A stretch of 64,000 bases of DNA, taken from the NCBI RefSeq assembly GCF_001050155.1, contig NZ_LFVY01000015.1:1-64000 (forward strand), in the 5' to 3' direction. Of the stretch, positions 16,135 through 31,647 are shown in pieces. The stretch comes from Nitratireductor soli (lineage in GTDB: Bacteria > Pseudomonadota > Alphaproteobacteria > Rhizobiales > Rhizobiaceae). The notes under the pieces are model-generated. The model was not told the origin of the DNA. It did not search any database and was given only the letters and a program-made list of their open reading frames with translations. The translations under genes were made by a program, and so were the position numbers. Position 1 is the first letter of the stretch; every line of letters begins with the position of its first letter.

Positions 16135-16204
16135 GACCTATTAATCTGGTGGGGCGATTTTTCCCAACAGATGGGGACCATCTGTTGGGATCGCACCACT
16201 AGGA
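16135..16204. repeat. Two-hairpin element, right half (copy A)
   Basis: CTGGTGGGGCGATTTTTCCC followed by the hairpin CCCAACAGATGG/CCATCTGTTGGG and ATCGCACCACTAG. This is the right half of the 122-bp element seen whole at 31526. Its stem carries C:G where other copies have T:A, changed on both arms. Confidence 0.85.
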
Positions 16205-16277
16205 CCCGGCCGGAACGCCATTGCAGCCAACATGCAGAAGCAGCCGCGCCAACCGCCGGGGAGCCGGTCGCCCATAG

Positions 16278-16321
16278 TTTTACCCGGGTATATTGACAGA
16301 AATATTATACCCGGGTAAAAA
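16278..16321 (+). promoter_or_regulatory. Twin palindromic operator around a promoter for the DUF2239 gene
   Basis: TTTTACCCGGGTATA (16278-16292) and its exact reverse complement (16306-16320) flank TTGACA at 16293-16298, with TAAAAA at 16316-16321 after a 17-bp spacer. Each arm holds the palindrome TACCCGGGTA, and the two centres are 27 bp apart. A dimeric repressor binding both would cover the -35 and -10 boxes. The cognate regulator is not identified in this window. Confidence 0.8.
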
Positions 16322-16345
16322 GTGGAAAATTCCCTGGAGACGACC

Positions 16346-16963
16346 ATGACCACCACCTACACCGCCTTTCACGGCAAAAAATGCCTGGCCAGCGGACCGG
16401 CGGCCGAGGTGGCACTGGCCGCCCGGGCCGTCCTCGACATGCATCCGGCAGCCGACCTGTTCATCTTCGACGACGCGACGGGACGGCAGACCGATTTCAA
16501 CCTGACCGGCAGCAAGGCCGAAATGGCGGCCAGGCTGGCGCCCGCGCCCCGAAAGCCCCAGGCGCCGCGCACGCCGGGCCGCCCCAAACTGGGCGTGGTG
16601 GCGCGCGAAGTGACGCTGCTGCCGCGCCAATGGGACTGGCTGGGCAGCCAGCCGGGCGGCGCATCGGCGACCCTGCGCCGGCTGGTGGATGCGGCCCGCA
16701 ACGCCGGCGCGCCGCGCGAACGCACCCGCCAGGCGCAGGCGGCGGCCGACCGTTTCATGATGGCGATGCTGGGCGACCAGCCGGGCTATGAGGAAGCGGC
16801 GCGCGCGCTCTACGCGGGCGACGCCAAGGCGTTCCGCGGCCGCATCGCCGCCTGGCCGGCCGATCTCAAGGCCCATGTGGAGCGGCTGGCGGCGCCCGCC
16901 TTCGGCGATGCCGCTATGCCTGGTGGTCTGACCGAAACAGATGGTCCCCATCTGTTTCGATAA
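16346..16963 (+). CDS. DUF2239 family protein
   Basis: A 205-residue protein of the DUF2239 family. It begins MTTTYTAFHGKKCLASGP with GGAG about 8 bases upstream; an in-frame GTG eight codons earlier is less likely. Features include a beta-rich N-terminal part (LFIFDDATGRQTDFNLTG), an Ala/Pro linker, GRPKLGVVAREVTLLPRQW, and a C-terminal helical domain. The last 13 residues (GGLTETDGPHLFR) and the stop come from an adjacent hairpin repeat, so the native end has been altered. Function is unknown. The strong twin operator upstream indicates tight control. Confidence 0.85.
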   Translation: MTTTYTAFHGKKCLASGPAAEVALAARAVLDMHPAADLFIFDDATGRQTDFNLTGSKAEMAARLAPAPRKPQAPRTPGRPKLGVVAREVTLLPRQWDWLGSQPGGASATLRRLVDAARNAGAPRERTRQAQAAADRFMMAMLGDQPGYEEAARALYAGDAKAFRGRIAAWPADLKAHVERLAAPAFGDAAMPGGLTETDGPHLFR

Positions 16964-17000
16964 GTCAGCCCACAAGCTATTGATCCGGTGGGGCGATTTA
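16921..17000. repeat. Two-hairpin element, left half (copy B)
   Basis: GGTGGTCTGACCGAAACAGA begins the left hairpin (CGAAACAGATGG/CCATCTGTTTCG). The linker ATAAGTCAGCCCACAAGCTA follows, then TTGATCCGGTGGGGCGATTT, where the copy stops. It overlaps the 3' end of the DUF2239 gene and supplies its stop codon. Confidence 0.88.
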
Positions 17001-17032
17001 GGGGCGCGAAGGAACGCGACTGTAGAACCAGG

Positions 17033-17575
17033 CTAAGGCGCGACCGGCAATGCCTTGAACATGATGGTCGTCGCATCGAGGCGGCCATCGAAGGGATCGC
17101 GGCAATAGCCGGGGATGACGCCGGCCGTTGCGAAACCGAGCGCCGCATAGAGCGGTTCCGCCTTGTCGCCGCTGCGCGTGTCGAGCGTGATCAGGCTGCG
17201 CCCGAGCGCCAGGCTGTGCGCCTCGAGCGCCGCCATCAGCGCCCGGCCGATGCCGCGACGGCGACAGGCCGGGTCGACCAGCAGCTTGGCGGCCTCGGCC
17301 CGGTGCGGCTGGTTGGGCGGCGTATCGGTGACGAGCTGCACCGACCCGACGAGCCGCCCGCCCTGCCAGGCAACCAGCAGAATCCGGCCGCCCGCGCCAA
17401 GCGGCGGCAGCACCTTGCCGCGCCAAAAGGCTTCCGCCTCCGCCAGGGAGAACGGCAGCACGAAGCCGATGCTGGCCCCATCATGCACGCAGGCATGCAG
17501 GAGCGAGGCCAGATCCGCCAGGTGACGCCCGGCTTCTTCGGCCGAAAGCACGGCGATGGTCAGTTCGTCCTTCAT
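17033..17575 (-). CDS. GNAT family N-acetyltransferase
   Basis: A 180-residue GNAT acetyltransferase. The acetyl-CoA-binding motif A is visible as VDPACRRRGIGRALMAALE near residues 100-118, preceded by the strand RILLVAWQGGRLVGSVQL. A C-terminal segment PLYAALGFATAGVIPGY is typical of motif B. It starts six bases after the XRE-cupin regulator stops, so the two form an operon. The substrate is unknown; the pairing suggests the regulator responds to it. Confidence 0.88.
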   Translation of the reverse strand: MKDELTIAVLSAEEAGRHLADLASLLHACVHDGASIGFVLPFSLAEAEAFWRGKVLPPLGAGGRILLVAWQGGRLVGSVQLVTDTPPNQPHRAEAAKLLVDPACRRRGIGRALMAALEAHSLALGRSLITLDTRSGDKAEPLYAALGFATAGVIPGYCRDPFDGRLDATTIMFKALPVAP

Positions 17576-17581
17576 GACCCC

Positions 17582-18151
17582 TCACAGGATAAAGAGAAGA
17601 TAGCGTGCCGCGACCGTGGCGGGCGTCGAGAAGACGCTCGGGCCGCGCAACTGGTAACGCAGGCAATCACCGGGCTGGAGACGGTGGTCCCGCCCATCGA
17701 CGCCGACGGTGAGTTCGCCCTCGGCGAGAAGGAGATGATGCTCCAGCCCGCTTCTGGGCGGCGCGTCATAGGCGATGCGCGTGCCCGGACCAAGCGTACA
17801 CTCCACCACCTCGCCGCCCAGCGCCCGCGACGGCGGCGAGACGAGGCGACGGTGGAAATCATGCTGCGGATCGACCCAAACGGCCTGCGCGTCGCGGGCG
17901 ACGCGCGGGGCAAAATCATCCTCGACCAGATACATCAGCCGCGAGACGGTGATGCCATAGGCGGCGCACAGCCTGCCTAAGACGCTGGCCGTCGGACTGA
18001 CCTCGGCGTTTTCCAGCCGCGACAGGGTGGCCCGGCTGACATTGCTGCGCTCGGCGAGCGCATCGAGCGACCAGCCCCGCTCGCCACGCAGGGCGCGCAG
18101 CCGCTGGGCGATGCGGTTGTCGAACGCGGATTGGGTGGGGATTGTTTCCAT
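17582..18151 (-). CDS. XRE family regulator with C-terminal cupin domain
   Basis: A 189-residue transcription factor. Residues about 12-66 form an HTH_3 DNA-binding domain (RLRALRGERGWSLDALAERS, SRATLSRLENAEVSP), and residues about 115-185 form a cupin (PGTRIAYDAPPRSGLEHHLL, ELTVGVDGRDHRLQPGDCL). This architecture typically senses a small ligand. The start at 18151 has only a weak GGGATAA upstream. It is first in a two-gene operon with the GNAT protein and probably autoregulatory (inference). Confidence 0.87.
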   Translation of the reverse strand: METIPTQSAFDNRIAQRLRALRGERGWSLDALAERSNVSRATLSRLENAEVSPTASVLGRLCAAYGITVSRLMYLVEDDFAPRVARDAQAVWVDPQHDFHRRLVSPPSRALGGEVVECTLGPGTRIAYDAPPRSGLEHHLLLAEGELTVGVDGRDHRLQPGDCLRYQLRGPSVFSTPATVAARYLLFIL

Positions 18152-18236
18152 ATATGAGAAATTATCCCGAAAAAGATCGCAGCGCAAGCGACCTGGCTGA
18201 CTGTCCTGATTGGAGCCCGGAAGGCTTTTGTCTCTG

Positions 18237-18422
18237 GTGTTGCCCGTCATCCCCGGCGAGACGATCCTGCTCATTGTCCGACCGGACGCGGCCCTGATCC
18301 AGCGCATGCGGCAGGCCTTTGCCAAAGGGCGGACGCGCAAGGCCTGTATCGGCTGCGAATGGGCAGCGCTGTGCACATCGGTCGCGCGCGAGGGTTACCG
18401 GCGGACGCGGCTTGCCGGATAA
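18237..18422 (+). CDS. Small cysteine-motif hypothetical protein
   Basis: About 61 residues, divergent from the XRE-cupin gene. The conserved-looking core is GETILLIVRPDAALIQRMRQ, then ACIGCEWAALC with three cysteines (CxxC..C), a possible metal site. There is no ATG. GTG at 18237 is chosen because GGAAGG lies 12 bases upstream; TTG at 18228 or 18210 are alternatives. Similar short proteins are seen in other rhizobia, but no function is known to me. Confidence 0.5.
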   Translation: MLPVIPGETILLIVRPDAALIQRMRQAFAKGRTRKACIGCEWAALCTSVAREGYRRTRLAG

Positions 18423-18622
18423 CGGCATAGCAACGCGCGGCTGACATCTTGTGTCGCACCCCCATTTATGTAATTAATCCCGCGCGCTCGGGTGATTGCA
18501 GACCTGGAGACTGGAAGCGTTTGGATGGACGACCCCTTTCCCCGACCTTGTTAAACTCTCGACGACCGTGAACCTGCGCACGTTGCGCAGACGCGACTTC
18601 TCAAAGGGAATAGGAGTTTCCC

Positions 18623-18835
18623 ATGGCCCAGACCGGCACCGTTAAATTCTTCAATGAAACCAAAGGCTTCGGCTTCATTACGCCGGATGATGGCGCGAAG
18701 GACGTGTTCGTCCACATCTCCGCCCTCGAAGCCTCCGGCATCAGGACCCTCGCCGATGGCCAGAAGGTCAGCTTCGAGACCGAGCCGGACCGCATGGGCA
18801 AGGGCCCGAAGGCCGTTAATCTGTCGCTGGCCTGA
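18623..18835 (+). CDS. Cold-shock protein, CspA family
   Basis: A 70-residue single cold-shock domain that binds single-stranded RNA/DNA. RNP1 (KGFGFI) is at residues 14-19 and RNP2 (VFVHIS) near 30-35. AGGAG lies about 6 bases before the ATG. The approximately 200 bases upstream hold a likely long 5' leader, as in many csp genes, including GTGCGCACGTTGCGCAG-type self-complementarity near 18570-18590. A close paralogue is 0.5 kb downstream. Confidence 0.95.
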
Positions 18836-19331
18836 TCCTTCAGCCTGATACAGAGATCTATTGTCGGCGTGGCGGTCTTCCGCCGCGCCTTTTCTTTGCC
18901 TGCAGTGTTCCCCATCGGCGATGAACTTCGCCACCCGTCCTATTCATAAAAGTTTCGCTTGCCCGTCTCTGAAAAATCGGGGAAGCTTCACTCTGTTCGG
19001 GCATTTGCCGGCCCGGAGACTGGAATAGCATGCCCTGGTTGAGGAATTTCTGGGTTGAGAAATTTCTGGAAAGGCCCTCCGGGAAGTCGCGCCGATGCTT
19101 ATGGAGAAAACATGCCTGTGGGACCGTGTCCCGCACCCCATGTCCCAGTGGTCTGACCGAAACAGATGGGCACCATCTGTTGGGATCGCACCACCAGACC
19201 ATGCCGAGCAGATGAGGCACGAAGCTGACTGTTTCTTCTCCCCCAGTAAACGACCGATGACGCCATGGGCCGAAACCCGGCAAGAGGTTTGCCCGCAGAG
19301 ACCAGCATGAAGGGAGAAAGGACTCCTTCCT
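18836..19331. other. Interval between the two csp genes
   Basis: About 500 bases without a supported gene. It contains a chimeric hairpin element (19141-19203). The remainder has open minus-strand frames that merely run through repeats. The last 30 bases supply the ribosome-binding site of the second csp gene. Confidence 0.5.
19141..19203. repeat. Two-hairpin element, chimeric single-hairpin copy (copy C)
   Basis: The left side is AGTGGTCTGACCGAAACAGA from hairpin 1; the right side is CCATCTGTTGGGATCGCACC from hairpin 2. The linker is missing, so the copy looks like recombination between the two homologous stems. The outer stem bases (GAA versus GGG) no longer pair fully. Confidence 0.8.
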
Positions 19332-19547
19332 ATGTCGCAGAGTGGTATCGTAAAGTTCTTCAATCAGGCCAAGGGGTTCGGGTTCATCACCCCGGATGCC
19401 GGCGGAGCCGATGTATTCGTTCACATCTCAGCCGTTCAGGCCTCCGGCCTGCCCGGCCTTGAAGACGGGCAGAAAGTGAGTTTCGAGACCGAGCCGGACA
19501 AGCGCGGCAAGGGACCGAAGGCCGTCAACCTGGCGGTTTCGCACTAA
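19332..19547 (+). CDS. Cold-shock protein, CspA family (second copy)
   Basis: A 71-residue cold-shock domain protein about 70% identical to the neighbour at 18623, with RNP1 KGFGFI and RNP2 VFVHIS intact. It differs mainly in residues 8-26 and at the C-terminus (AVSH). The ribosome-binding site (AAGGA) precedes the ATG. The stop codon TAA runs directly into a repeat that starts GAGCATTTTGCGG. The pair is a local duplication whose copies may differ in temperature or growth-phase control. Confidence 0.94.
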
Positions 19548-20026
19548 GAGCATTTTGCGGCCAAATGGACTCGTTTGGCATCGCTGAATGCGGTGGACAC
19601 AACTGAACAGGGCATTGTGAGTGAACCTGTGCTCACGAAAAATGCCCTGGTCCTTTGGCTGGAGCGTCACAAGCAGGGCGCTCCGGCAAGGCGGCGGCGA
19701 GAGCAACCGACGGGAACCGGCCCACAAGGCGCCGGCTTGTTTTCCGTGCGCTCGTGCAGGGCGCAGCGACGCTCCGTTCGCCGCAGTCTTTTCCGGTCGT
19801 CGCCCTGCATTGCGGCCTTGATTGCGGCCTTGGCATCCGATGGCATGACGGGCGAAAGCGGCGAAGCCGCGCCGCTTTGCGCACACGGCCGGTTACAACG
19901 CGAATCCATCGGTGAATGCCCTGTGGAGCCTTGTTCAGCTGGCATTCAGATGCGTTTGCCTATTTCCCCTAGCAAAGCTGCCGCCCCTCCCCGACACCCG
20001 GCAGCGCTTGACGAAGAGGTAACCCG
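19548..20026. other. Gene-poor interval upstream of the BA14K gene
   Basis: About 480 bases. It begins with a mosaic-repeat fragment (AAGAGCATTTTGCGGCCAAA). The rest has open frames on both strands without domain signals. The final 20 bases carry GAAGAGGTAA, the BA14K ribosome-binding site. Confidence 0.45.
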
Positions 20027-20473
20027 ATGAAGAGCATCCTGAAGACGAGCATTCTTTCCCTGGCCGTGGCGGCGATGACGCTCAGCGCCGTTTCAACGGC
20101 GAGCGCCGACCGCTGGCACAGGCATCACAGAAGCAATGGCGACGCGGTGGCCGCCGGTGTTCTCGGCCTGGCGGCGGGCGCCATCGTTGGCGGCCTGCTG
20201 TCGGACTCGCGCCGCAACGATCGCGTCTACATCGATCCGCCACGCCGCTATTACCCGGTCGAACGCGATTACTATCCGGTAGAGCGCGACTACTATCCGG
20301 CGGAGCAACGCTACAACAGGCCATACGCTCAGCCGACCTATTACCGCAGCACATTGGAGCCATGGTCGCGCGAGTGGTACCGCTATTGCTCGACGCGCTA
20401 TCGCAGCTTCGACGCGCGCAGCGGCACCTTCATGGGTTACGACGGCCGCCGGCATTTCTGCCAGCCGAACTGA
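20027..20473 (+). CDS. BA14K family protein with YYPVERD repeats
   Basis: A 148-residue secreted protein. Residues 1-27 are a signal peptide ending STASA. A Gly/Ala hydrophobic segment (AAGVLGLAAGAIVGGLL) follows, then three tandem copies of YYPVERD/YYPAEQR near residues 75-97. The BA14K C-terminal motif is C-STRYRSFDARSGTFMGYDGRRHFC. It is longer than the 110-residue BA14K protein at 4139 because of the Tyr/Pro repeat. An intrinsic terminator follows. Exported, function unknown. Confidence 0.88.
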   Translation: MKSILKTSILSLAVAAMTLSAVSTASADRWHRHHRSNGDAVAAGVLGLAAGAIVGGLLSDSRRNDRVYIDPPRRYYPVERDYYPVERDYYPAEQRYNRPYAQPTYYRSTLEPWSREWYRYCSTRYRSFDARSGTFMGYDGRRHFCQPN

Positions 20474-20531
20474 GGCCGACCGGGCGAAAGCGAACGGCAC
20501 GATTCCGGGAAAACCGGGCCGGAACCAGAAA

Positions 20532-20572
20532 AGAGAGCCGCGCATTGGCCAGGATGCGCGGCTCTTTGAAGA
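20532..20572 (+). terminator. Intrinsic terminator after BA14K
   Basis: AGAGCCGCGCAT and ATGCGCGGCTCT pair in a 12-bp perfect stem with an 8-base loop, followed by TTTG. It is the first strong hairpin after the 20473 stop. Confidence 0.8.
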
Positions 20573-20656
20573 ATGAAGACTGGTTGAAAAATGAAGACTG
20601 GGCCGAAATCCCAGTCTTTCCCTTGTCAAATCTGTCAGCAATGATCGTTTACGCCA

Positions 20657-20816
20657 GAGAGCCATGCGCCCATTCGGGCGCTACACATTCGGGCGCTACA
20701 CAAGGGCGCTACACAAGGGCGCTACACAAGGGCACTCCATTTCTTTGATTTCCGCACTTATGCACGTTCCGCATTTATGCACGTCAAGTGTTTCCACCTG
20801 ACCGCAAAAACGGCAA
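20657..20816. repeat. Mosaic hairpin repeat, copy 4, with internal tandem repeats
   Basis: It begins AGAGCCATGCGCCCATTCGG. About 20668-20737 repeats the 13- to 14-base unit GGGCGCTACACAA about five times. It continues with ATTTCTTTGATTTCCGCA and a degenerate hairpin (TATGCACG twice), then CAAGTGTTTCCACCTGACCG. The first module has expanded by slippage. Confidence 0.75.
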
Positions 20817-21087
20817 AGAACACGCAACGCAAAACAGGGGTAATTTCGTGCACGGAGACAAAACTCCCCGCGAAACGCAACCCGTTGCACTTGCCAAGGC
20901 AATCACTGTCACGCGTGACGCAACGCTGACCGTCCGCAACGGCATCATGACACGATGTAACCGATACGATATCGAGGCAATGCCCCCGCAGCAATCGGGC
21001 TCACGCCAGAATCCACAACTTATTGGCGAATGAAGCGGAAGATTGCACGGAAGATCGCTCGCCGTCCGGCTCCCGCTTGACTCACGA
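20817..21087. other. Interval upstream of the ArsR operon
   Basis: About 270 bases with lower GC and no supported gene. An open plus-strand frame of 81 codons beginning at 20788 has no ribosome-binding site or domain. Confidence 0.4.
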
Positions 21088-21130
21088 ATAACTCTCCGGT
21101 TATTGAACAGATTAATAACCAGAGAGTTAT
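21088..21130 (+). promoter_or_regulatory. 17-bp inverted-repeat operator of the ArsR-type regulator
   Basis: ATAACTCTCCGGTTATT (21088-21104) and AATAACCAGAGAGTTAT (21114-21130) are reverse complements with one mismatch, separated by nine bases, and end eight bases before the regulator's start codon. The position and symmetry suit autorepression by the ArsR-family dimer encoded just downstream. Confidence 0.82.
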
Positions 21131-21137
21131 CGATTTC

Positions 21138-21461
21138 ATGCCAGAGCCCCATCATGTCCTCTTCAAGACACTCGCCGACCCGACGCGACGGGCGATCTTC
21201 GAGCGGCTGTGCCGCGACGGAGACACGACCGTCGCGGCCTTGACCGCCAGGGCCGGGGTCTCGCAGCCCGCCGTGTCAAAACATCTGGCGATCCTGAAAC
21301 GGGCCGGGCTCGTACGTGACCGCCAGGAAGGACGCCAAACGCACTATAGCGCCGAGCTCGATGCCCTGGCCCCGCTGGTCGACTGGACGAACCGGATGAA
21401 CGGCTTCTGGCAAAACCGGTTCGATGACCTTGAAGACCTGCTGAAAAGGATGGACCAATGA
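21138..21461 (+). CDS. ArsR family transcriptional regulator
   Basis: A 107-residue winged-helix regulator. The start MPEPHHVLFKTLADPTRRAI and recognition helix region VSQPAVSKHLAILKRAGLV are typical of the ArsR subgroup that is paired with SRPBCC proteins. No metal-binding CxC motif is present, so it probably responds to something other than metal. It overlaps the next gene by four bases (ATGA). A strong inverted repeat lies immediately upstream. Confidence 0.92.
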   Translation: MPEPHHVLFKTLADPTRRAIFERLCRDGDTTVAALTARAGVSQPAVSKHLAILKRAGLVRDRQEGRQTHYSAELDALAPLVDWTNRMNGFWQNRFDDLEDLLKRMDQ

Positions 21462-21868
21462 ACGATGCCGCGCCCGAAACGCTTTCCGTCGTCGTCGAGC
21501 GGGAAATGCCCCACCCGCCGGAAAAGATCTGGCGTGCGCTCACGCAACCACACCTGATCGAGGAGTGGCTCATGAAGAATGCGTTCAGACCCGTTATGGA
21601 CCATCGTTTCAATCTGACAGCCGACTGGGGCAGCGTCGATTGCAAGGTCCAGGCAGTCGAACCGAACAGGGCGCTGTCCTACAGCTGGGACACCAAGGAC
21701 CTCAGAAGCGTCGTCACCTGGACCCTCACGCCGACCGGCACGGGAACGCTCCTGCGCATGGAGCAGGAAGGCTTTCGATCGGACCAGCAGCCCTATTACC
21801 GGGGCGCCCAGGCCGGATGGCCGCGCTTTTTCGCCAACCTGGAAGAGGTTCTTGCGCGGATCGACTGA
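21458..21868 (+). CDS. SRPBCC/AHSA1 family protein
   Basis: A 136-residue START-like (activator of Hsp90 ATPase homologue 1-like) protein. It opens with SVVVEREMPHPPEKIWRALT and keeps the family features HLIEEWLM, a central beta-sheet (TWTLTPTGTGTLLRMEQEGF) and a C-terminal helix (FFANLEEVLARID). This fold binds hydrophobic ligands. It is translationally coupled to the ArsR regulator, a very common pair, but the ligand is not known. Confidence 0.9.
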   Translation: MNDAAPETLSVVVEREMPHPPEKIWRALTQPHLIEEWLMKNAFRPVMDHRFNLTADWGSVDCKVQAVEPNRALSYSWDTKDLRSVVTWTLTPTGTGTLLRMEQEGFRSDQQPYYRGAQAGWPRFFANLEEVLARID

Positions 21869-21952
21869 CGGCCGCGTGGGAACCACCATCGGGCCGCCCC
21901 GGCGGCCCGCCTCAACACGATTGCAAGCCCGACCACGAAGGAGGAACAACCA

Positions 21953-22174
21953 TTGGACTTGAGCAAATGGGTGCGGCAGATTCACCGCTGGCTTTCCATA
22001 GCGTTTACGGCGGTCGTCGCCTTCATCTTCATCATGCTCGGGATGGGAAGGGAGCCGGCCGAATGGGTGTATTTCACGCCGTTGCTGCCGCTCGCCCTGC
22101 TCCTCTTCACGGGCCTGTACATGTTCGTGCTACCCTATGCAGCCAACTGGCGCAGCGGGCGGGCCGACGGGTAG
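21953..22174 (+). CDS. Small two-segment membrane protein with TTG start
   Basis: A 73-residue protein with hydrophobic segments at about residues 13-31 and 41-62. The segment before the first is basic (KWVRQIHRW) and the C-terminus is charged. The start is TTG at 21953, supported by AAGGAGG centred about 11 bases upstream; there is no ATG in a suitable place. It sits in the ArsR operon between the SRPBCC and DUF1801 genes. No family was recognised with certainty. Confidence 0.75.
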   Translation: MDLSKWVRQIHRWLSIAFTAVVAFIFIMLGMGREPAEWVYFTPLLPLALLLFTGLYMFVLPYAANWRSGRADG

Positions 22175-22185
22175 GAGCGAAGGCG

Positions 22186-22653
22186 ATGGCCGTGAATGCA
22201 TCCGGCAAGCCAAAGAAGACGGGAGCGATGACGGGCACGGCGGCCGACGCCAAGCCGGTCCTGCTTTCAGGCGGCAACCCGCAGATCGCCAAGGCCTATG
22301 GCGACGCCCCCGTGCAGGCTTATATCGCGGCCATGCCGGGCTGGAAGAGCGATCTCGGGCGGCGCCTCGACGCGCGCATCGAGGAAGCCGTCCCCAACGT
22401 GCACAAGGCGGTCAAATGGAACTCGCCATTCTATGGGATCGAGGGCCAGGGATGGTTTCTCAGCCTTCACTGCTTCACCAGATACGTCAAGGTGGCCTTC
22501 TTCCGCGGCACCTCGCTGCGCCCCGTTCCCCCCGGAGAATCGAGGACAAAGGAGACGCGCTACCTCAACATCCATGAGGAGGACCGGCTCGACGAGGCAC
22601 TGTTCGCCGACTGGGTGAAACAGGCCAGCCGATTGCCGGGCGAGCGGATGTGA
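22186..22653 (+). CDS. DUF1801 domain protein
   Basis: A 155-residue protein of the DUF1801 (YdhG-like) family. It has a variable Lys/Ala-rich N-terminus, then VQAYIAAMPGWKSDLGRRLD, the conserved KWNSPFYGIEGQGWFLSLHC core, and a KVAFFRGTSL strand. The start at 22186 follows GGAGCGAAGG. It lies in the ArsR operon, 12 bases after the membrane protein. Function is unknown; the fold is an iron-chaperone (frataxin-like) type in some members, which cannot be judged here. Confidence 0.85.
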   Translation: MAVNASGKPKKTGAMTGTAADAKPVLLSGGNPQIAKAYGDAPVQAYIAAMPGWKSDLGRRLDARIEEAVPNVHKAVKWNSPFYGIEGQGWFLSLHCFTRYVKVAFFRGTSLRPVPPGESRTKETRYLNIHEEDRLDEALFADWVKQASRLPGERM

Positions 22654-22697
22654 GCGGCGGGCGGACGACGACAATCACCAACAGGACGACGACCGAC

Positions 22698-23111: not shown

Positions 23112-23147
23112 GGGTGAGGGGCGAGCACCGGAGGAACCCGCGATCCC

Positions 23148-23930: not shown

Positions 23931-23946
23931 AAACTCTACAGGCGTC

Positions 23947-24343: not shown

Positions 24344-25237
24344 CTATTGCGCGGCGGCTCGCAGCCCCGGACGCACCTCGTTTGCATAGTCGTTCATCAG
24401 CAAACGCGTGATTTCGCCCACTTCGAAGCGGTATGGACCGACTTCCGAGACCGGTGTGACCTCGGCGGCGGTGCCGCACAGGAAGCACTGTTCGAAGCCC
24501 GTCAGTTCGTCGGGCATGATCGCCCGCTCGACCACTTCGATGCCGCGCCGGCGCGCCAGAGCGATCACCGTGCGCCGGGTGATTCCATCCAGGAAGCAGT
24601 CCGGCGTCGGCGTGTGGATCACGCCATCCTTGACGAAGAAGATGTTGGCGCCGGTGGCTTCGGCCACCTGGCCGCGCCAGTCGAGCATCATCGCATCGGC
24701 ATAGCCTTTCGCCTCCGCCGCGTGCTTCGACAGGGTGCATATCATGTACAGGCCAGCCGCCTTCGACTTGGACGGCGCGGTGCGCGGGTCGGGCCGGCAA
24801 TACTCGGCCATGTCGAGACGGATGCCCTTCAACCGCTGTTCGGGATCGAAATAGCTCGGCCACTGCCAGATGGCGATGGCGAGGTTGATGCGGTTGTTCT
24901 GCGCCGAAACGCCCATCATCTCGCTGCCGCGCCAGGCGATCGGCCGCACATAGGCATCGACAAAGCCCTGCTTGGCCAGAAGCGTACGGCAGGCCCCGTT
25001 GATCTCCTCGACCGACCAGGGAATGCGGAAACCGAGGATGCGGGCCGATTCGTGCAGCCGCTCCGTATGCTCGTTGAGCTTGAAGATCTCGCCGTCATAG
25101 GCGCGCTCGCCCTCGAACACGGCGCTGGCGTAATGCAGGCCGTGCGTCAGCACGTGAATCTTGGCGTCCGCCCATTTGACGAATTCGCCATTGAGCCAGA
25201 TAAAGCCCTCGAGCTGATCAAAAGGAACCGCTGCCAT
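24344..25237 (-). CDS. ilvE: Branched-chain amino acid aminotransferase
   Basis: A 297-residue PLP-dependent fold-type IV aminotransferase, interconverting Leu, Ile and Val with their 2-oxoacids. Family features include FEGERAYDGEIFKLNEHTER, the phosphate-binding and lysine region SKSKAAGLYMICTLSKHAA (Schiff-base Lys in this block), VAEATGANIFFVKDG, and LCGTAAEVTPV. The start at 25237 (MAAVPFDQLEGFIWLNGEFV) has GGAGAGG upstream; the eight-codon longer form is not favoured. Monocistronic, and divergent from the MarR gene across a repeat cluster. Confidence 0.93.
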   Translation of the reverse strand: MAAVPFDQLEGFIWLNGEFVKWADAKIHVLTHGLHYASAVFEGERAYDGEIFKLNEHTERLHESARILGFRIPWSVEEINGACRTLLAKQGFVDAYVRPIAWRGSEMMGVSAQNNRINLAIAIWQWPSYFDPEQRLKGIRLDMAEYCRPDPRTAPSKSKAAGLYMICTLSKHAAEAKGYADAMMLDWRGQVAEATGANIFFVKDGVIHTPTPDCFLDGITRRTVIALARRRGIEVVERAIMPDELTGFEQCFLCGTAAEVTPVSEVGPYRFEVGEITRLLMNDYANEVRPGLRAAAQ

Positions 25238-25326
25238 GTCACCTCTCCTGCCGGCGCCCACCGCTCGGGGCCCGGACGAAACCTGAAATGCCGCCCGCTG
25301 CGGACGACGCCTTCAATCAATCAGCC

Positions 25327-25374
25327 TGGTGGTGCGATCCTGACAGATGGGTACCATCTGTTTCGGTCAGACCA
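25327..25374. repeat. Two-hairpin element, chimeric copy (copy D)
   Basis: GGTGGTGCGATCCTGACAGA, from the hairpin-2 side, is joined through CCATCTGTTTCGGTCAGACC, from the hairpin-1 side, with no linker. The order is the reverse of copy C at 19141. Confidence 0.82.
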
Positions 25375-25376
25375 CT

Positions 25377-25493
25377 CGTGGTGCGATCCTAACAGATGGT
25401 ACCCATCTGTTAGGAAAAATCGCCCCACCAGATCAACAGCTTGTGGGCTGACTTATCGAAACAGATGGTACCCATCTGTTTCGGTCAGACCAC
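25377..25493. repeat. Two-hairpin element, full-length, reverse orientation (copy E)
   Basis: GTGGTGCGATCCTAACAGAT begins hairpin 2. The reversed linker AAAAATCGCCCCACCAGATC follows, then GCTTGTGGGCTGACTTATCG and hairpin 1, ending TTTCGGTCAGACCAC. Both loops read GGTACC, making the hairpins fully self-complementary. Confidence 0.88.
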
Positions 25494-25604
25494 CCGGCGC
25501 AACGGGAAGATTTTGAAGGATGTTCCCAAAAAACGCCTTCAGGAAACCTTTTTGTTCGCGCCAGGCCGAAAACATTGTCAAAAATTATCAATGTGCCGAA
25601 AATA

Positions 25605-25621
25605 TGTCAATAAGGCTGACA
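25605..25621. promoter_or_regulatory. Inverted repeat upstream of the MarR gene
   Basis: TGTCA and TGACA surround seven bases, 43 bases before the MarR start, in an AT-rich stretch (25570-25630) unlike the surrounding DNA. It is a possible regulator-binding site; the spacing is inferred only from symmetry. Confidence 0.4.
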
Positions 25622-25663
25622 TAAATTCTTCGCCATTCGAGACGAAACCGATTACAAGCAGCC

Positions 25664-26170
25664 ATGAGCCACAAAGACGCCCCGCCGATCAAAGCCCCGC
25701 TGACGCTGAAGGACGGCGTCGACTTCGCCATCATCGAGCATCTGTTCTTCGCCTATCGCGACTTCACCTCGGACCCGGACGCCATCCTGGCCGAATACGG
25801 CTTCGGCCGCGCGCATCACCGGGTGCTGCATTTCGTCAATCGCCGGCCCGGCCTGACGGTGGCCGAGTTGCTCGATGTCCTGCGCATCACCAAGCAGAGC
25901 CTGGCGCGCGTTCTCAAGCAACTGATCGACGACGAATACATCGTCCAGGTGCAGGGCCCGCGCGACCGCCGCCAGCGCGAGCTGTACCCGACGCAGAAGG
26001 GACGCGACCTGGCGCTGGCGCTGGCCCTGCCACAGTCCCGCCGCATCCGTGCGGCACTTGAAGAGGCGCAGCTTGCCGACAGTGCCGTGGTCGAGCGCTT
26101 CTTGCGCGCCATGGTCGATCCCGAGTTGCGCGCCCAGATGGACAAACTGCCCAATGGACGCTCGCAATAA
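25664..26170 (+). CDS. MarR family regulator (PetP-like)
   Basis: A 168-residue winged-helix MarR protein. The DNA-binding core reads LTVAELLDVLRITKQSLARV and the wing VQVQGPRDRRQRELYPT. A MarR gene immediately followed by an OmpR-type response regulator is the petP-petR arrangement described in Rhodobacter capsulatus, where both affect cytochrome bc1 expression; in this genome petABC is 30 kb away. The orthology is an inference from order and family only. The ligand is unknown. Confidence 0.85.
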   Translation: MSHKDAPPIKAPLTLKDGVDFAIIEHLFFAYRDFTSDPDAILAEYGFGRAHHRVLHFVNRRPGLTVAELLDVLRITKQSLARVLKQLIDDEYIVQVQGPRDRRQRELYPTQKGRDLALALALPQSRRIRAALEEAQLADSAVVERFLRAMVDPELRAQMDKLPNGRSQ

Positions 26171-26217
26171 CAAGGCGCTATCATTAGGGGAGCATCGCAG
26201 CCGTGGAGACCATGACC

Positions 26218-26940
26218 ATGAGCGAGACCGGCAGTGAGGGCAAGGAGGCCGCCATCCTCAGCGATGACGCGCCGCATCTGCTCGTCGTCGATGACGACAC
26301 GCGCATTCGTAGCCTTCTCAACCGCTTCCTGCGCGAGAACGGCTTTCGCGTCACCATTGCCGGCAATGCCGCCGAGGCGCGGCGCAAGCTGAACGGGCTG
26401 GACTTCGACCTGGCAATCCTCGACGTGATGATGCCTGGCGAGGACGGCGTCGCCCTGACGCGCGCCCTGCGCGCCGACAAGGACATGCCGATCCTGATGC
26501 TGACGGCGCTTTCGGAAACTGAAAGCCGCGTTGTCGGCCTGGAAGCCGGCGCCGACGATTACCTGCCCAAGCCCTTCGACCCGCGCGAGCTGGTGCTGCG
26601 CATCAACAACATACTGCGCCGCAGCGGCCCGCAGACCTCGCTGAAGGTGGAACAGGTGGTGTTCGGCCCCTATGCGTTCCAGATTTCGCGCCGCGAGTTG
26701 AAGCACACCGGCAAGCTGGTCAAGCTGACCGACCGCGAACGCGAGATCATGGTGATCTTCGCCGAACGCGCCGGCGAGACCGTGCCGCGCCATGAACTGG
26801 TCGGCGAGGATTCGGAAGTCGGCGAACGCACCATCGACGTGCAGATCAACCGCCTGCGCCGCAAGATCGAGCGCGACCCGTCAAACCCGGTCTATCTGCA
26901 GACCGTGCGCGGCATCGGCTATCGGCTGAGCGTCGAATAG
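26218..26940 (+). CDS. OmpR-family response regulator (PetR-like)
   Basis: A 240-residue two-component regulator. Its receiver domain has the acidic pair D25-D27, phosphoacceptor Asp69 in LAILDVMMP, and the Lys in YLPKPFDP. The winged-helix effector domain spans about residues 140-238 (LTDREREIMVIFAERAGETV, RTIDVQINRLRRKIE). ATG at 26218 is chosen because GGAG lies 10 bases upstream; ATG 26212 and GTG 26203 are alternatives. It follows the MarR gene by 47 bases. Its likely partner kinase is at 27614, separated by one convergent gene. Confidence 0.92.
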   Translation: MSETGSEGKEAAILSDDAPHLLVVDDDTRIRSLLNRFLRENGFRVTIAGNAAEARRKLNGLDFDLAILDVMMPGEDGVALTRALRADKDMPILMLTALSETESRVVGLEAGADDYLPKPFDPRELVLRINNILRRSGPQTSLKVEQVVFGPYAFQISRRELKHTGKLVKLTDREREIMVIFAERAGETVPRHELVGEDSEVGERTIDVQINRLRRKIERDPSNPVYLQTVRGIGYRLSVE

Positions 26941-26949
26941 GCTCCCGGC

Positions 26950-27294
26950 CTATATCTCCAACGCCTGATAGTTGGCGATGTCCGCCTTGATGCCGAGGCG
27001 ATCGATCATTTCGCGGGGATTGAAGCCGATGCCCGCATGCAGCGCCGCGACCGCCGCCGACGCACGCTCCATCGCGGCAACGCTTTCCCATTCGACCATC
27101 GTCACGAAATTGAAGGCGCCCGGCCCCGAGGCCTGTTCGAGGATCACATCCTGGACGAAGCCCTGCTGCTGGCGCAGCGTCGCATGGGTCGTGGCGACGC
27201 GTTCGAGAAACGCGCCGCGCGCCGCGGGCGGAACGACGAATTTATCGACGCGATAGTGGGGTGAAGACGGCTGCGGGCTTTCGGCTGACGACAT
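26950..27294 (-). CDS. Antibiotic biosynthesis monooxygenase-like protein
   Basis: A 114-residue dimeric alpha/beta-barrel protein of the ABM superfamily. The N-terminal strand YRVDKFVVPPAARGAFLERV and the FNFVTMVEWESVAAMERASA segment are typical. ABM proteins range from heme-degrading or quinol monooxygenases to proteins with no activity; no catalytic residue can be fixed here. The start at 27294 has TGGAG about 8 bases upstream. It is convergent with the response regulator, with only nine bases between the stop codons. Confidence 0.82.
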   Translation of the reverse strand: MSSAESPQPSSPHYRVDKFVVPPAARGAFLERVATTHATLRQQQGFVQDVILEQASGPGAFNFVTMVEWESVAAMERASAAVAALHAGIGFNPREMIDRLGIKADIANYQALEI

Positions 27295-27504
27295 CTGATC
27301 TGCTCCATTGGTCGCAAACATGCAGGTGCTGCATGGCGTTTTGTAATCCGAGTATCGGACCTCAACCATGGTTGAGGTCAAGAGGTGAATGCCGTGTTTC
27401 GCATCATCGAGACGCGGCGTTGGTCCGGCGCACCGGAGGCAGCCTGCGGGCAAATCAAGTTTGCCCGGAAAGCCGGTTTCCACTTGCCAAATCAATGCCT
27501 GGTG

Positions 27505-27571
27505 GTCTGGTGGGGCGATTTTTCCTAACAGATGGGTAGCATCTGTTAGGATCGCACCACTAGGATCGGCG
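27505..27571. repeat. Two-hairpin element, right half (copy F)
   Basis: CTGGTGGGGCGATTTTTCCT, then hairpin CCTAACAGATGG/CCATCTGTTAGG interrupted by a GTAG loop (one arm reads GCATCTG), then ATCGCACCACTAGGATC. It lies just upstream of the histidine-kinase gene. Confidence 0.85.
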
Positions 27572-27613
27572 GTGGAACAGGCCACTGAAACGGGGCGCCG
27601 AAACACAGGCGGA

Positions 27614-29026
27614 ATGGCTGATTTGCAAGAGACTTCGCAGGACAGGTTGACGCCGCTGATGCGCGCCCGGCGCGTCGTGGCCGCGACGCGCCGGCCATGG
27701 CGGCGCTTCTGGCGCGTCGTTTCGCGCTACATGCCGAAGCGGCTGTACGCCCGCTCGCTGATCATCGTCATCGCCCCGATGCTGCTCCTGCAATCGGTCA
27801 TCGCCTTCACCTTCATGGAGCGCCATTGGCAGACGGTGACGCAGCGCCTCAGCCAGGCGGTGACGCGCGACATCGCCGCCATCATCGACATGATCGAGAC
27901 CTATCCCGACGACAACGGCTATGCGCAGGTGATCCGCATCGCCCAGGAAAGGCTGGCGCTGAAGATCGACCTGCTGCCGCCCGACCCCCTGCCCGCGCCC
28001 GGCCCGAAGCCGTTTTTCTCGATCCTCGACCAGACGCTGAGCGAGGAGATCACCAAGCAGATCAACCGCCCCTTCTGGCTCGACACGGTGGGCAATTCGA
28101 ACATCGTCGAGATCCGCATCCAGATGGAGAACCGGGTGCTGCGCGTGTTTGCCCGGCGCAGCCAGGCCTACGCCTCCAACACGCACATCTTCCTGTTGTG
28201 GATGGTCGGCACCTCGCTGGTGCTGATCGCCATCTCGGTCGCCTTCCTGCGCAACCAGATCCGGCCAATCCTGCAACTGGCCGAGGCGGCCGACAGCTTT
28301 GGCAAGGGCCGCCCGACGCCGAGCGATTTCCGCCCGCGCGGCGCCGAGGAGGTGCGGCGCGCCGGCAGCGCCTTCCTCGTGATGCGCGAGCGCATCGAGC
28401 GGCAGATCGAGCAGCGCACGGCGATGCTGACCGGCGTCAGCCACGATCTGCGCACCATTCTGACCCGCTTCAAGCTGCAACTGGCGCTGGCCCATTCGAA
28501 GGACGACATCGAGGCGCTGGACCAGGACATCGAGGACATGCGCTCGATGCTGGAAGGCTACCTGGCCTTCGCCCGCGGCGATGCGGCCGAGGATCCCGGC
28601 GCCTTCAACCTGGCCTCCTTCTTCGACCGCGTGACGGAGGAGGCCGGCCTGCGCGACAGCACGCTGAAGACCGCCATCGCCGGCGACCCGGTCCTGCATG
28701 TGCGCCCCAACGCCTTCGGCCGGCTCCTGAACAACGTCGTCGGCAACGCCTTCCGCTATGCGACCCATGTGGAGATCGTCGCGCGCAACGCCGGCGGCAC
28801 GCTGACCATCACCGTCGACGATGACGGCCCCGGCATCCCGCCCGACATGCGCGAGGACGTGTTCAAGCCCTTCGTGCGGCTCGACGAGGCGCGCAACCAG
28901 GACGAAAGCGGCACCGGGCTCGGCCTGTCCATCGCCCGCGACATCGCCCGCGGCCATGGCGGCGACGTGACGCTGGAGGAGAGCCCGCTGGGCGGCCTGC
29001 GGGCGGTGATACGGGTGCCGTCCTAG
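27614..29026 (+). CDS. EnvZ-like sensor histidine kinase
   Basis: A 470-residue membrane kinase. TM1 spans about residues 48-68 and TM2 about 192-212, with a periplasmic loop of about 120 residues between them. A HAMP linker follows, then the HisKA phospho-acceptor His277 in TGVSHDLRTILTRFK, with the N box LLNNVVGNAFRYA and the G boxes DDGPGIPPD and GTGLGLSIA. The usual H-box Pro (RTPL) is Ile here. It probably phosphorylates the OmpR-type regulator at 26218, although an unrelated convergent gene and a hairpin element separate them. The ATG is at 27614; no strong ribosome-binding site is seen. Confidence 0.92.
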   Translation: MADLQETSQDRLTPLMRARRVVAATRRPWRRFWRVVSRYMPKRLYARSLIIVIAPMLLLQSVIAFTFMERHWQTVTQRLSQAVTRDIAAIIDMIETYPDDNGYAQVIRIAQERLALKIDLLPPDPLPAPGPKPFFSILDQTLSEEITKQINRPFWLDTVGNSNIVEIRIQMENRVLRVFARRSQAYASNTHIFLLWMVGTSLVLIAISVAFLRNQIRPILQLAEAADSFGKGRPTPSDFRPRGAEEVRRAGSAFLVMRERIERQIEQRTAMLTGVSHDLRTILTRFKLQLALAHSKDDIEALDQDIEDMRSMLEGYLAFARGDAAEDPGAFNLASFFDRVTEEAGLRDSTLKTAIAGDPVLHVRPNAFGRLLNNVVGNAFRYATHVEIVARNAGGTLTITVDDDGPGIPPDMREDVFKPFVRLDEARNQDESGTGLGLSIARDIARGHGGDVTLEESPLGGLRAVIRVPS

Positions 29027-29059
29027 GGCGTTTCCAGCACGCTATCTCCTCGACGGCCC

Positions 29060-29311
29060 TCAGCGCAGCGCCGGGCGTGGCGGGTGGTCGAGTTCGAAGA
29101 CGAGGGTCTGGCCGCCATCGGCGGCGACCCGGATGCGGCGGGCGCGGATGATGAAGATGACGGGTTCTCCGGCTCCGGCAAGCTCGACGAAATCGCCCTT
29201 TCGCGCCCATTGGCCGATGGCGAGCGCGGCGAGCCTGTCGCCGAGGCCGGCTGTGTCCGCCTTGCGCCGGGCGCTGGCGGTCAGTTCGATCACGGTCTTC
29301 ATCATGCTCAT
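29060..29311 (-). CDS. Small conserved hypothetical protein
   Basis: An 83-residue protein, start MSMMKTVIELTASARRKADT, with GGAGG about 10 bases upstream. The composition is natural, with a beta-rich C-terminal half (KGDFVELAGAGEPVIFIIRA, RRIRVAADGGQTLVFEL). It is convergent with the histidine kinase. No family was recognised. Confidence 0.65.
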   Translation of the reverse strand: MSMMKTVIELTASARRKADTAGLGDRLAALAIGQWARKGDFVELAGAGEPVIFIIRARRIRVAADGGQTLVFELDHPPRPALR

Positions 29312-29485
29312 CAGGGGCGGCCTCCTGCTGGTTTTCAGGAAAATAATCCCGGCATAACGGCAAGCCGGCCAGCGGAATCGGTTCAACCGGCGCCCATTCC
29401 GGATTAGCCTTTCGTCGTAGACGCTGAGTCGCGATCCGGCTGCGTTGGTGAGTTTTGCCCGATCGCCTTGAAGAAGGAAGAGGCA

Positions 29486-29980
29486 ATGACCTCCCGTTAC
29501 GCAAAAATCGTCATGACACTGGCCCTGGCGGCCTTTGCCTTCATGGTCACCTTCAACAACATCACCGACTACGGATCGAACTTCGAGTTCGTCAAACACG
29601 TGTTCAGCATGGACACGACCTTCCCCGGCAACAAGGCCATGTACCGCGCCATCGAAACACCGACGCTGTGGCATGCGGGCTATTGGCTGATCATCGCCGG
29701 CGAGGGCCTGACCTTCATTCTGCTGTTGATCGGCGGCTTGCAGATGCTCGGCGCGCGTGCGCAGCCGGCCGCGGCCTTCCAGGCGGCCAAGAAATGGACC
29801 ATTGCCGGTGCGGCGGTCGGCTTTCTCGTCTGGTTCTTCGGCTTCATGGTCGTCGGCGGAGAATGGTTCCTGATGTGGCAGTCGGACACGTGGAACGGCC
29901 AGGACGCGGCCTTCAAATTCTACATGGCCATTCTCGGCGTGCTGATCTTCGTCAACCAGCCGGACCGCGAGATCGGCTGA
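29486..29980 (+). CDS. DUF2165 family membrane protein
   Basis: A 164-residue integral membrane protein of the DUF2165 family. Four hydrophobic segments lie at about residues 8-26, 66-86, 104-124 and 142-158, with the conserved FNNITDYGSNFEFVKHVFSM loop after TM1. The start at 29486 is preceded by GGAAGAGG. It is followed six bases later by the GFA-like gene and probably cotranscribed. Function is unknown. Confidence 0.9.
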   Translation: MTSRYAKIVMTLALAAFAFMVTFNNITDYGSNFEFVKHVFSMDTTFPGNKAMYRAIETPTLWHAGYWLIIAGEGLTFILLLIGGLQMLGARAQPAAAFQAAKKWTIAGAAVGFLVWFFGFMVVGGEWFLMWQSDTWNGQDAAFKFYMAILGVLIFVNQPDREIG

Positions 29981-29986
29981 CGAACG

Positions 29987-30340
29987 ATGTTCGAGGCGAC
30001 ATGCCATTGCGGGGCCGTGCGGATGAAAATCGCCGCTCAGCCCCCTTGGCTGACCCTGTGCAATTGCTCGCTCTGCCGCCGTCTGGGAGCGCTTTGGCTG
30101 CATTGCCATCCGGCGGAGGTGGAGTTCACCGCCGGCGCGGACGCGACGAAAGCCTATCTGCAGGGCGACCGGACGCTCGAAATGCACCATTGCACGACGT
30201 GCGGCTGCACAACGCATTGGAGCCCGGTGGGGAACGGCGACCGCATGGCGGTCAATGCGCGGCTGATCGACCCCGAAGCGATCGCCGGCCTGCGCGTGCG
30301 CCATTTGGACGGGGCGGAGACATTCGCCTATCTGGACTGA
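29987..30340 (+). CDS. GFA/CENP-V family zinc-binding protein
   Basis: A 117-residue protein of the GFA (glutathione-dependent formaldehyde-activating enzyme-like) fold. Zinc ligands are visible as CHCGAV (C6, C8), CNCSLCRR (C25, C27, C30) and CTTCGC (about C69, C72, C74). The core fold is complete for the family. True formaldehyde activity is rare in the family, so the substrate is unassigned. It ends in a mosaic repeat shared with the convergent beta-lactamase. Confidence 0.9.
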   Translation: MFEATCHCGAVRMKIAAQPPWLTLCNCSLCRRLGALWLHCHPAEVEFTAGADATKAYLQGDRTLEMHHCTTCGCTTHWSPVGNGDRMAVNARLIDPEAIAGLRVRHLDGAETFAYLD

Positions 30341-30387
30341 GACGGACCCGGCCGCACGCGGCAGCCGGGTCTCGCCGGTCTCAGGCT

Positions 30388-30492
30388 ACAGCGCCGCGCG
30401 TCTTATCAGACGCGCAAAGGACGCTCTATCTTCTTGTTTTTCCGCATTGATGCGGACGTCAGGTGATTCCACCTGGCAGCTCAAATGCTACA
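30388..30492. repeat. Mosaic hairpin repeat, copy 5
   Basis: ACAGCGCCGCGCGTC/GACGCGC first hairpin, then AAGGACGCTCTATCTTCTTG, CCGCATTGATGCGG, and CAGGTGATTCCACCTG, ending AAATGCTACAG. It sits between two convergent genes, and its right end contains the beta-lactamase stop codon. Confidence 0.85.
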
Positions 30493-31396
30493 GCGTCTCG
30501 GCGAGCGTGCGGCCGATCTCGGCGATGGCGGCGTTGCGCTGGTCCATCGGCTGCTTGCACTCGGCGATGTAGATCGCCGCGATCACCGGCTGCCGCGCCG
30601 GCGGCCAGATGACGGCGACGATGCCGCGCGACCCGTGCCCGCCGGCGCCGGTCCTGTCGGCGATGCGCCAATCGCCGGGCAGCCCGGCCCGCAACAGGGG
30701 CCGGCTGACCTTGTTGTCGATGAGCCAGGTTTCGAACTGCCGCCGCGAGGCGGACGCCAGCACGTCGCCGAAGACGAGCGTCCGCAGGCTGGCGGCGATC
30801 GCCTCCGGCGTCGTGGTGTCGCGCGGGTCTCCGGGCGTCGCCGTGGTGAGCCCCGGCTCCTTGCGGTCGAGCCGCGAGACGCCGTCGCCGATCGAGCGCA
30901 TGAATCGCGTCCAGCCCTGCGGCCCGCCCAGACTGTCGACGAGCAGATTGGCGGCGGTGTTGTCGCTCATGGTCGAGGCGGCCTCGCACAGCTCGAACAG
31001 CTTCATCGGACGGCCGCCGACGCGCTTTTCAGTGACCGGCGAATAGTTGACGAGGTCGCTCTTGCGGATGGCGATCTCGCGCTCCAGCGTCTCCTCCCCC
31101 GCATCGACACGGGCGAGCACCGCGGCGCAGGCGAAAGCCTTGAACGTGCTGTTCATCGGAAACCGTTCGTCGGCCCGCTGCAGCCAGCGCCGCCCGGTGT
31201 GCGTGTCGGTGATCGAGGCGCCAAGCCGGGCGCCGAGCCGTTTCTCCATCTCGACCAGCTTGCGGGCCAGCGCGTCGTCCGCTCCGGGAGCGGCGGCCGC
31301 CCAATTGGGGGAGAGGGTCGCGGCGAGCGTTGCCGCGGTGGCAAGGCAAAAGCCGCGCCGGGTGATATCGGCTTGTATGAATTTTTCCACAATCAT
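30488..31396 (-). CDS. Class A beta-lactamase
   Basis: A 302-residue serine beta-lactamase, exported to the periplasm. The N-terminus carries a twin-arginine-type signal (ITRRGFCLATAATLAA). Active-site motifs are STFK at residues 83-86 (Ser70/Lys73 by class A numbering), SDN at 144-146, Glu180 (E166) in KEPGLTTA, and RTG at 248-250 in place of the usual KTG. The residue at the Asn170 position appears to be Thr. An 18-bp tandem duplication at 31394-31429 duplicates the ribosome-binding site and start, so translation may also begin at 31414 or 31435, adding MAILKD units. No ampR-type regulator is adjacent. Confidence 0.92.
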   Translation of the reverse strand: MIVEKFIQADITRRGFCLATAATLAATLSPNWAAAAPGADDALARKLVEMEKRLGARLGASITDTHTGRRWLQRADERFPMNSTFKAFACAAVLARVDAGEETLEREIAIRKSDLVNYSPVTEKRVGGRPMKLFELCEAASTMSDNTAANLLVDSLGGPQGWTRFMRSIGDGVSRLDRKEPGLTTATPGDPRDTTTPEAIAASLRTLVFGDVLASASRRQFETWLIDNKVSRPLLRAGLPGDWRIADRTGAGGHGSRGIVAVIWPPARQPVIAAIYIAECKQPMDQRNAAIAEIGRTLAETL

Positions 31397-31429
31397 GTCC
31401 TTCAAAATGGCCATGTCCTTCAAAATGGC
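31394..31429. repeat. 18-bp tandem duplication at the beta-lactamase start
   Basis: CATGTCCTTCAAAATGGC occurs twice in a row. On the coding strand each unit reads GCCATTTTGAAGGACATG, so it contains a GAAGGA ribosome-binding site and an in-frame ATG. Confidence 0.92.
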
Positions 31430-31525
31430 AAACACCGGATCGCGCCAAAACAGACGCGTGCTCCAACGTCCCTCAGGCTTGGGCGTTTTTTGTGTTCGCC
31501 TGCGATTCCGCCGAAAAAACGACGC

Positions 31526-31647
31526 CTAGTGGTCTGACCGAAACAGATGGTCCCCATCTGTTTCGATAAGTCAGCCCACAAGCTATTGATCTGGTGGGGC
31601 GATTTTTCCTAACAGATGGGTACCATCTGTTAGGATCGCACCACTAG
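31526..31647. repeat. Two-hairpin element, full-length forward copy (copy G)
   Basis: A complete 122-bp copy. The terminal inverted repeat is CTAGTGGT ... ACCACTAG. Hairpin 1 is CGAAACAGATGG/CCATCTGTTTCG, the linker is ATAAGTCAGCCCACAAGCTA then TTGATCTGGTGGGGCGATTT, and hairpin 2 is CCTAACAGATGG/CCATCTGTTAGG. No reading frame is conserved across copies. It lies between the beta-lactamase start and the DUF2269-like gene. Confidence 0.92.

Follow-up and report, generated by a model that had tools for sequence, protein, structure and literature searches.

Two-hairpin miniature elements inserted at CTAG form a genome-wide family in Nitratireductor soli

The 64,000-nucleotide stretch of the Nitratireductor soli contig NZ_LFVY01000015.1 analysed here (the window; G000:C7:1-64000 in a draft genome of 5.1 Mb) carries copies of a 122-bp two-hairpin element, which we designate family A. 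Family A is a genome-wide family of miniature inverted-repeat transposable elements (MITEs) of the alphaproteobacterial two-arm palindromic kind. A sequence-only reading of the window had called the element either MITE-like or a structured RNA. We consider it likely that its features, taken together, are explained by insertion of a MITE into CTAG, homogenisation of its arms, hairpin-mediated decay, and exchange of halves among several CTAG-ended families.

To look for empty sites, we joined the flanks of nine copies and searched five congeners for them. One copy, filled here as CTAA-TGGT...ACCA-CTAG (L039), corresponds to an uninterrupted CTAG in 5/5 relatives. At a second site (L042), 4/5 relatives read TTC-CTAG-AAT, and the fifth, Nitratireductor sp. 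ZSWI3, holds a short remnant with an internal deletion (L169). Two further sites were less clean, with CTAG in 2/3 relatives (L030) and in 1/1 at just 67% identity (L028). Since the empty sites hold a single CTAG, this word is the duplicated target, and what moves is the 114-bp unit TGGT...ACCA. The ends CTAGTGGT/ACCACTAG, the linker and the AACAGATGG hairpins were correctly described by the sequence-only reading; the terminal CTAG, which it had counted as part of the element, is target. The element's own ends are TGGTCTGACC and TGGTGCGATCC, and its terminal inverted repeats are present but imperfect (TGGTCTGACCGAAACAGATGG vs TGGTGCGATCCTAACAGATGG). With tandem-array copies dropped, the 4-mers at the two ends were equal in 24/67 full copies against 15.5 expected, a value reached in 0/5000 permutations; where both ends departed from CTAG, they were equal in 5/25 against 2.1 expected (P 0.035). 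In the mechanism that we propose, the 114-bp unit would insert at CTAG and duplicate those 4 bp, mobilised in trans, probably by a DDE transposase with a 4-bp staggered cut and perhaps of the IS5 family.

The element had been thought confined to 16-32 kb, which holds within the window alone. The core hairpin ACAGATG-N3-8-CATCTGT occurs at 85 places genome-wide, compared with 0 for a reversed control pattern. A covariance model built on 14 copies (R1) found at least 47 near-complete copies, scoring 86 bits or above, and at least 16 weaker places, among which are two hybrids and the short form at 25326; these are lower bounds on distinct places counted by hand, as scoring covered 150 of the 1371 first-look candidates. 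A pattern scan for the short form returned 18 places, 3 of them within full copies, leaving 15 short copies. Searched on two strands, R1 gave 104 matches in this genome, 102 in ZSWI3, 5 in N. pacificus pht-3B and 1 in a fourth Nitratireductor genome (G061), so that 4/10 genomes of the genus had matches, two of them richly, and the remaining six had 0. A draw of 61 genomes across the taxonomic family, made with stricter filters than the genus search, matched in 2/61, namely this genome and one weak match. The exact left-hairpin pattern, run over a species collection, recovered 29 stretches, a minimum that favours copies with this hairpin, from ZSWI3, N. pacificus, three Hoeflea bins, Xaviernesmea rhizosphaerae and one Rhodospirillaceae bin. 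Family A had no match in plasmid, phage and viral collections. Dispersed copies, near-inverted ends, duplicated CTAG at empty sites and presence in part of the genus bear out the MITE-like character proposed earlier. Tandem copies were also seen: four stand head to tail with a period of 117 in this genome (L049, G000:C58:61647-62118), successive copies having one 4-bp word in common (CTGG where read), and in ZSWI3 two copies are arrayed with a shorter spacer (L098).

In each half of the element an outer stem carries an inner hairpin, and the two are separated by a bulge of about 4 nt that occurs on the linker-side arm but not on the other. Loops are mostly TNC in the left hairpin and GNA in the right, swapped in a few copies. 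Among 70 distinct copies (73 minus 3 duplicate sequences), the minimum fold of the plus strand was the two-hairpin form in 43; a cloverleaf was the minimum in 17, and the other 10 took neither form. For the full copy at 31526 a cloverleaf was predicted on both strands, with a very stable fold (z -11.9). The cloverleaf, a four-way junction, was rejected as the working fold, being preferred by this minority of copies and having two special stems without covariation.

The earlier observation that both arms of the second hairpin change together proved real, and richer than first described. In an alignment made without reference to structure, double-change cells numbered 66 in the right inner hairpin and 18 in the left, compared with 6 (target bases) and 1 in cloverleaf stems A and D; covariation thus involves the inner hairpins and hardly the cloverleaf stems, and does not extend to all stems of one fold. 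The base of the right hairpin was fully matched in 53/70 distinct copies, in six forms: CCCAAC/GTTGGG (25), CCTGAC/GTCAGG (13), CCTAAC/GTTAGG (9), CCAGAC/GTCTGG (4), and CCCGAC/GTCGGG and CGAAAC/GTTTCG (once each); the remaining 17 had a mismatch or G-T. Across 18 copies from several genomes, 22 double-change cells were found, against 9.0 in shuffled and 5-8 in slid controls, and the Rhodospirillaceae copy (L097) carried its own matched set of stem changes.

The paired changes fit arm conversion better than RNA selection. Conversion is preferred because some right halves have become bulge-free perfect hairpins. In three copies (L011, L046, L121), the linker-side 4-nt bulge is gone and the arms, 21-22 bp long, pair perfectly over a span of 47 bp; one of these (L121) carries in both arms a private change found in no other copy. 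A Hoeflea left half (L093) has likewise lost its bulge. Template switching at quasi-palindromes, according to excerpts of three papers, restores base pairing and can, in a single step, introduce compensatory changes of several bases (PMC8794818, PMC8604942, PMC7202029). In our proposal, each half is a quasi-palindrome whose arms would repeatedly be equalised by intra-strand template switching or hairpin conversion, and this equalising, judged from its footprints, would yield the paired stem changes. Of the two causes offered by the sequence-only reading, selection or conversion, the latter is the one favoured.

Selection on the fold of a structured RNA, either a small RNA or a cis-acting transcript element, would be compatible with the stability of the fold and with paired changes above shuffled and slid controls. 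This alternative appears very improbable to us, as both strands fold almost equally well, the cloverleaf stems lack double changes except at target bases, whole-arm conversion has removed the bulge, an Rfam scan of the window at gathering scores returned 0 matches, and the model matched in none of six among the ten congeners. The structured-RNA label proposed earlier is thus disfavoured, as far as predicted folds and alignments can tell.

A second alternative is that the paired changes are inherited differences between subfamilies, amplified from a few old masters, present copies having undergone hardly any conversion or none. The distribution of hairpin types by genome speaks for it, with CCCAAC in 16/17 sampled ZSWI3 copies and CCAG(A/G)C in 5/7 sampled Hoeflea copies, both samples being biased because most copies came via the left-hairpin pattern. 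However, left and right hairpin types occur in many combinations, mismatched intermediates exist, and the private change in L121 is present in both arms; we regard this alternative as doubtful, if possible.

Arm conversion would be accompanied by decay, in which hairpin-mediated deletion turns copies into short forms, single halves and remnants. We propose this step because of the 15 short forms and the ZSWI3 remnant at the L042 site. Copies in several of these states were present at all seven places originally listed in the window, two full, two short and three partial or hybrid:

16125..16202, plus strand: hybrid, made of CTAG and the element E end GGTCAGGACCTATTAAT, a complete A right half, and CTAG (16199-16202)
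16920..about 17000, plus strand: partial copy, with left half, linker and start of right half
19145..19197, plus strand: short form with one hairpin and an identical CCAG 4-mer at either end
25326..25378, minus strand: short form, one hairpin made of left outer arm and right outer arm
25375..25496, minus strand: full copy, 137.9 bits (R1)
27499..27563, plus strand: deletion derivative, outer CTGGTGGT fused straight to right-half inner CTGGTGGGG
31526..31647, plus strand: full copy, 122 bp including both CTAG, 147.9 bits (R1)

The copy at 31526 is laid out as CTAG (31526-31529), TGGT...ACCA (31530-31643) and CTAG (31644-31647), with left hairpin, linker CTATTGAT and right hairpin in that order. 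The short and full copies at 25326 and 25375 are placed head to tail and have the 4-mer CTCG (25375-25378) in common. The insert at 25375..25496 is absent from 6/6 relatives aligned there and that at 19145..19197 from 4/4; at both sites flank divergence is too high for the duplication to be read. In the hybrid, whose true start is 16125 and not 16135 as first given, the E end is joined to the A right half at the linker. The copy at 27499..27563 has lost its left half between two similar words. The copy at 16920 provides the final codons and stop (16920-16963) of a DUF2239 gene (16346-16963), and the short copy at 19145 sits between two cold-shock genes. These genes (18623-18835 and 19332-19547) are in tandem, with 73% identity over 209 nt. 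The first start codon of a beta-lactamase-family reading frame (30488-31435, minus strand) lies about 90 bp from the full copy at 31526.

Family A belongs among several CTAG-ended families that use one another's CTAG and swap halves at the linker. Family B (133 bp, CTAG-TGCAAC...GGGGCAGGACA-CTAG) is built in the same way, with linker-side bulges AAA and CTTG, and a five-sequence alignment gave 8 double-change cells against 2.3 shuffled and 0 slid. Its model (R2) returned 49 two-strand matches in this genome, which include reverse-strand doubles, hybrids and A copies (23 full-length B copies were counted by hand), 8 matches in ZSWI3 and none in the remaining eight congeners; family B had no match in the plasmid collection. 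Six of the 23 full B copies overlap an A copy by exactly 4 shared bp, and three B-left/A-right hybrids are joined within the linker (C12:297775, C33:241729, and G066:C21:35442 of ZSWI3). Family C (115 bp) lies directly beside the A copies L040, L074 and L152. It matches 302 plasmid records (146 from Sinorhizobium, 136 from Rhizobium), including pSymB of S. meliloti 1021 at 29 places, and none of the matched records has an annotation naming the repeat. A single insertion common to two species, suggested at first by L040/L074, is no more than possible, as the shared flank turned out to be repeat C. The linkers are AAGCTATTGATC in A, AAATTATTGAATC in B and AACTTATTGAAAG in C. GANTC is found in the B linker of 16/24 copies (3 lack it and 5 linkers were unread) and at the hairpin tip in 3/4 rows of C. 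Element E of ZSWI3 (about 262 bp) has the end GGTCAGGACCTATTAAT at both ends, inverted, abuts A copies via a shared CTAG (L055 1235-1504, L088 4168-4437), and is also present on plasmids of two other Nitratireductor.

Further junctions were observed with repeat D (AGCATTTTGCAGTCAGGTGGAATCACCTGAC...), which abuts A copies at CTA(G/T) (L123, L129, L237, L240). At L023 an A left half passes into D-like sequence at the linker, and at L136 a C-type hairpin directly follows an A left half, possibly a further mosaic.

CTAG-ended families would thus insert at each other's CTAG and swap halves at the common linker, the hybrids having presumably formed by recombination or switching there. A broader proposal is that these families make up a superfamily of unlike sequences with shared architecture and CTAG targets, in which an IS5-family transposase recognises the halves by their fold or palindromic form more than by their letters, stems drift by template switching and halves swap at the linker. 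The shared traits are the two quasi-palindromic halves, a TATTGA-type linker and, in A and B, a 3-4-nt linker-side bulge; we consider this extension quite unlikely as a whole.

The surroundings of the copies were also compared with exchanged flanks. With L123 and L056 left out, 8/71 of the 73 copies are flanked by inverted repeats with a run of at least 5, where exchanged flanks gave an expectation of about 1.2, and at least 2 of these eight flanks are themselves repeats, another A copy at L098 and element E at L088. The longest such run is 13 (L087), and A or B copies lie inside flanking, terminator-like inverted repeats at L087, L095, L122, L185 and L187.

The best lead for the transposase of family A, judging by end similarities, is the IS5 family. 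Congeners have an IS5-family transposase (above cut-off for NF033580; DDE_Tnp_1) between G(G/C)TCAGGACCCATTGAT-like ends, with CTAG on either side (L223, L221). These elements measure about 0.84 kb including the transposase, their end is GGTCAGGACCCATTGAT, and their plasmid relatives are annotated as ISKpn12 family. Element E and, on its left side, the window hybrid at 16125 have ends close to this one, and E looks like a MITE of such CTAG-targeting elements. The lead rests on the fusion, in that hybrid, of an A half to an E end resembling the congener IS5 ends. Another end, CTAG-GTTCTGTACCCATAAATGG, was seen near IS5-like transposase matches in ZSWI3 and N. pacificus (L216 near 2130, L217 near 1065).

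Several results weigh against the explanation that we favour. A transposase carrying A's own ends, as the MITE-like interpretation had led one to look for, was not found among Y1, IS1182 and rve; what the congener IS5 elements share is the CTAG target and the E-type end. The genome had 0 matches to Y1_Tnp, with 5/14 control genomes positive. IS1182, some members of which target palindromes according to an excerpt of one paper (PMC5678879), was rejected as partner with 0/10 genomes above cut-off, and so was rve, for which none of 9 loci (5 of them above cut-off) had an A or B end pair at CTAG. Between A's ends TGGTCTGACC and the insertion sequence (IS) end GGTCAGGACC there is only a loose resemblance, judged by eye. 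The sole IS5-type gene seen here (L215) matches another IS5 model and lacks such ends; no NF033580 search of this genome was made. Four of the nine empty-site searches had no spanning match, and one site (L038) was not clearly readable. For short forms alone, 14 of 15 of which were used, end 4-mers were equal in 4/14 against 2.5 expected, which is not significant. Template switching is deduced from end products, and some of the paired changes could stem from old subfamilies that transposition has spread. As a separate observation, CTAG-TGTCCGGG stands beside a broken rve gene at L228.

The absence of Y1_Tnp matches also bears on another origin, in which the element would be a REPIN-like dimer of repetitive extragenic palindromic (REP) units, moved via single-stranded hairpins by a REP-associated tyrosine transposase (RAYT; Y1/HUH). 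The CTAG duplicated at empty sites is not expected from Y1 transposition, and A halves measure about 57 bp against 20-40 bp for REPs. We give this origin a very slim chance, even though family A is indeed made of two quasi-palindromes in inverted orientation that end in a 4-nt motif. Excerpts on GTAG/CGTC REPs and REPINs describe palindromic dimers with complementary stem changes, as in A (PMC3733652 for the GTAG/CGTC group; PMC3116915), and REP units that are partly RAYT-linked, unlike the situation in this genome.

Other known repeats were compared with family A through excerpts of the cited papers. The Caulobacter CcrM-associated intergenic repeats (CIR) are likewise alphaproteobacterial, about 110 bp long and built of two inverted-repeat arms and a linker, and 5'-TA-3' termini are common to both (PMC2229807, PMC10969869). 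CIR has GANTC at or near the arm tip, whereas the linker of A, in the 14 copies aligned, contains either GATC or a variant free of GANTC; the target duplication of CIR is marked '?' in a table (PMC2229807), whereas CTAG duplication is seen in A. The Rhizobium-specific intergenic mosaic elements (RIME) resemble A as rhizobial intergenic mosaic repeats (PMC2245857, PMC2573895). The link to RIME runs through family C, which abuts A; A itself is unmatched in the plasmid set. Family C is probably of the RIME/CIR class, possibly RIME itself, with A as its relative by architecture. Bru-RS1/2 of Brucella, palindromic intergenic repeats of about 103-105 bp, are like A by description, and serve as insertion sites of IS711, which duplicates TA at YTAR (PMC3163539, PMC2267715). 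The IS5-family elements of congeners have CTAG on both sides like A, and differ in their size of about 0.84 kb, their transposase and their other ends. Template-switch correction of quasi-palindromes, in which both arms change together as in A, is a process and not an element (PMC8794818, PMC8604942, PMC7202029). Word searches of the literature found no such element for these genera; sequence letters were not searched in papers.

Family A offers a natural set for separating RNA selection from DNA template switching as causes of paired changes, a distinction that matters wherever covariation counts as proof of functional RNA. For the two-arm repeats of Alphaproteobacteria, whose target duplication is listed as unknown in the excerpted part of one review (CIR, PMC2229807), it provides a target word, CTAG, together with empty sites and a candidate transposase family. 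The exchange of halves between families may be what 'mosaic' in RIME means.

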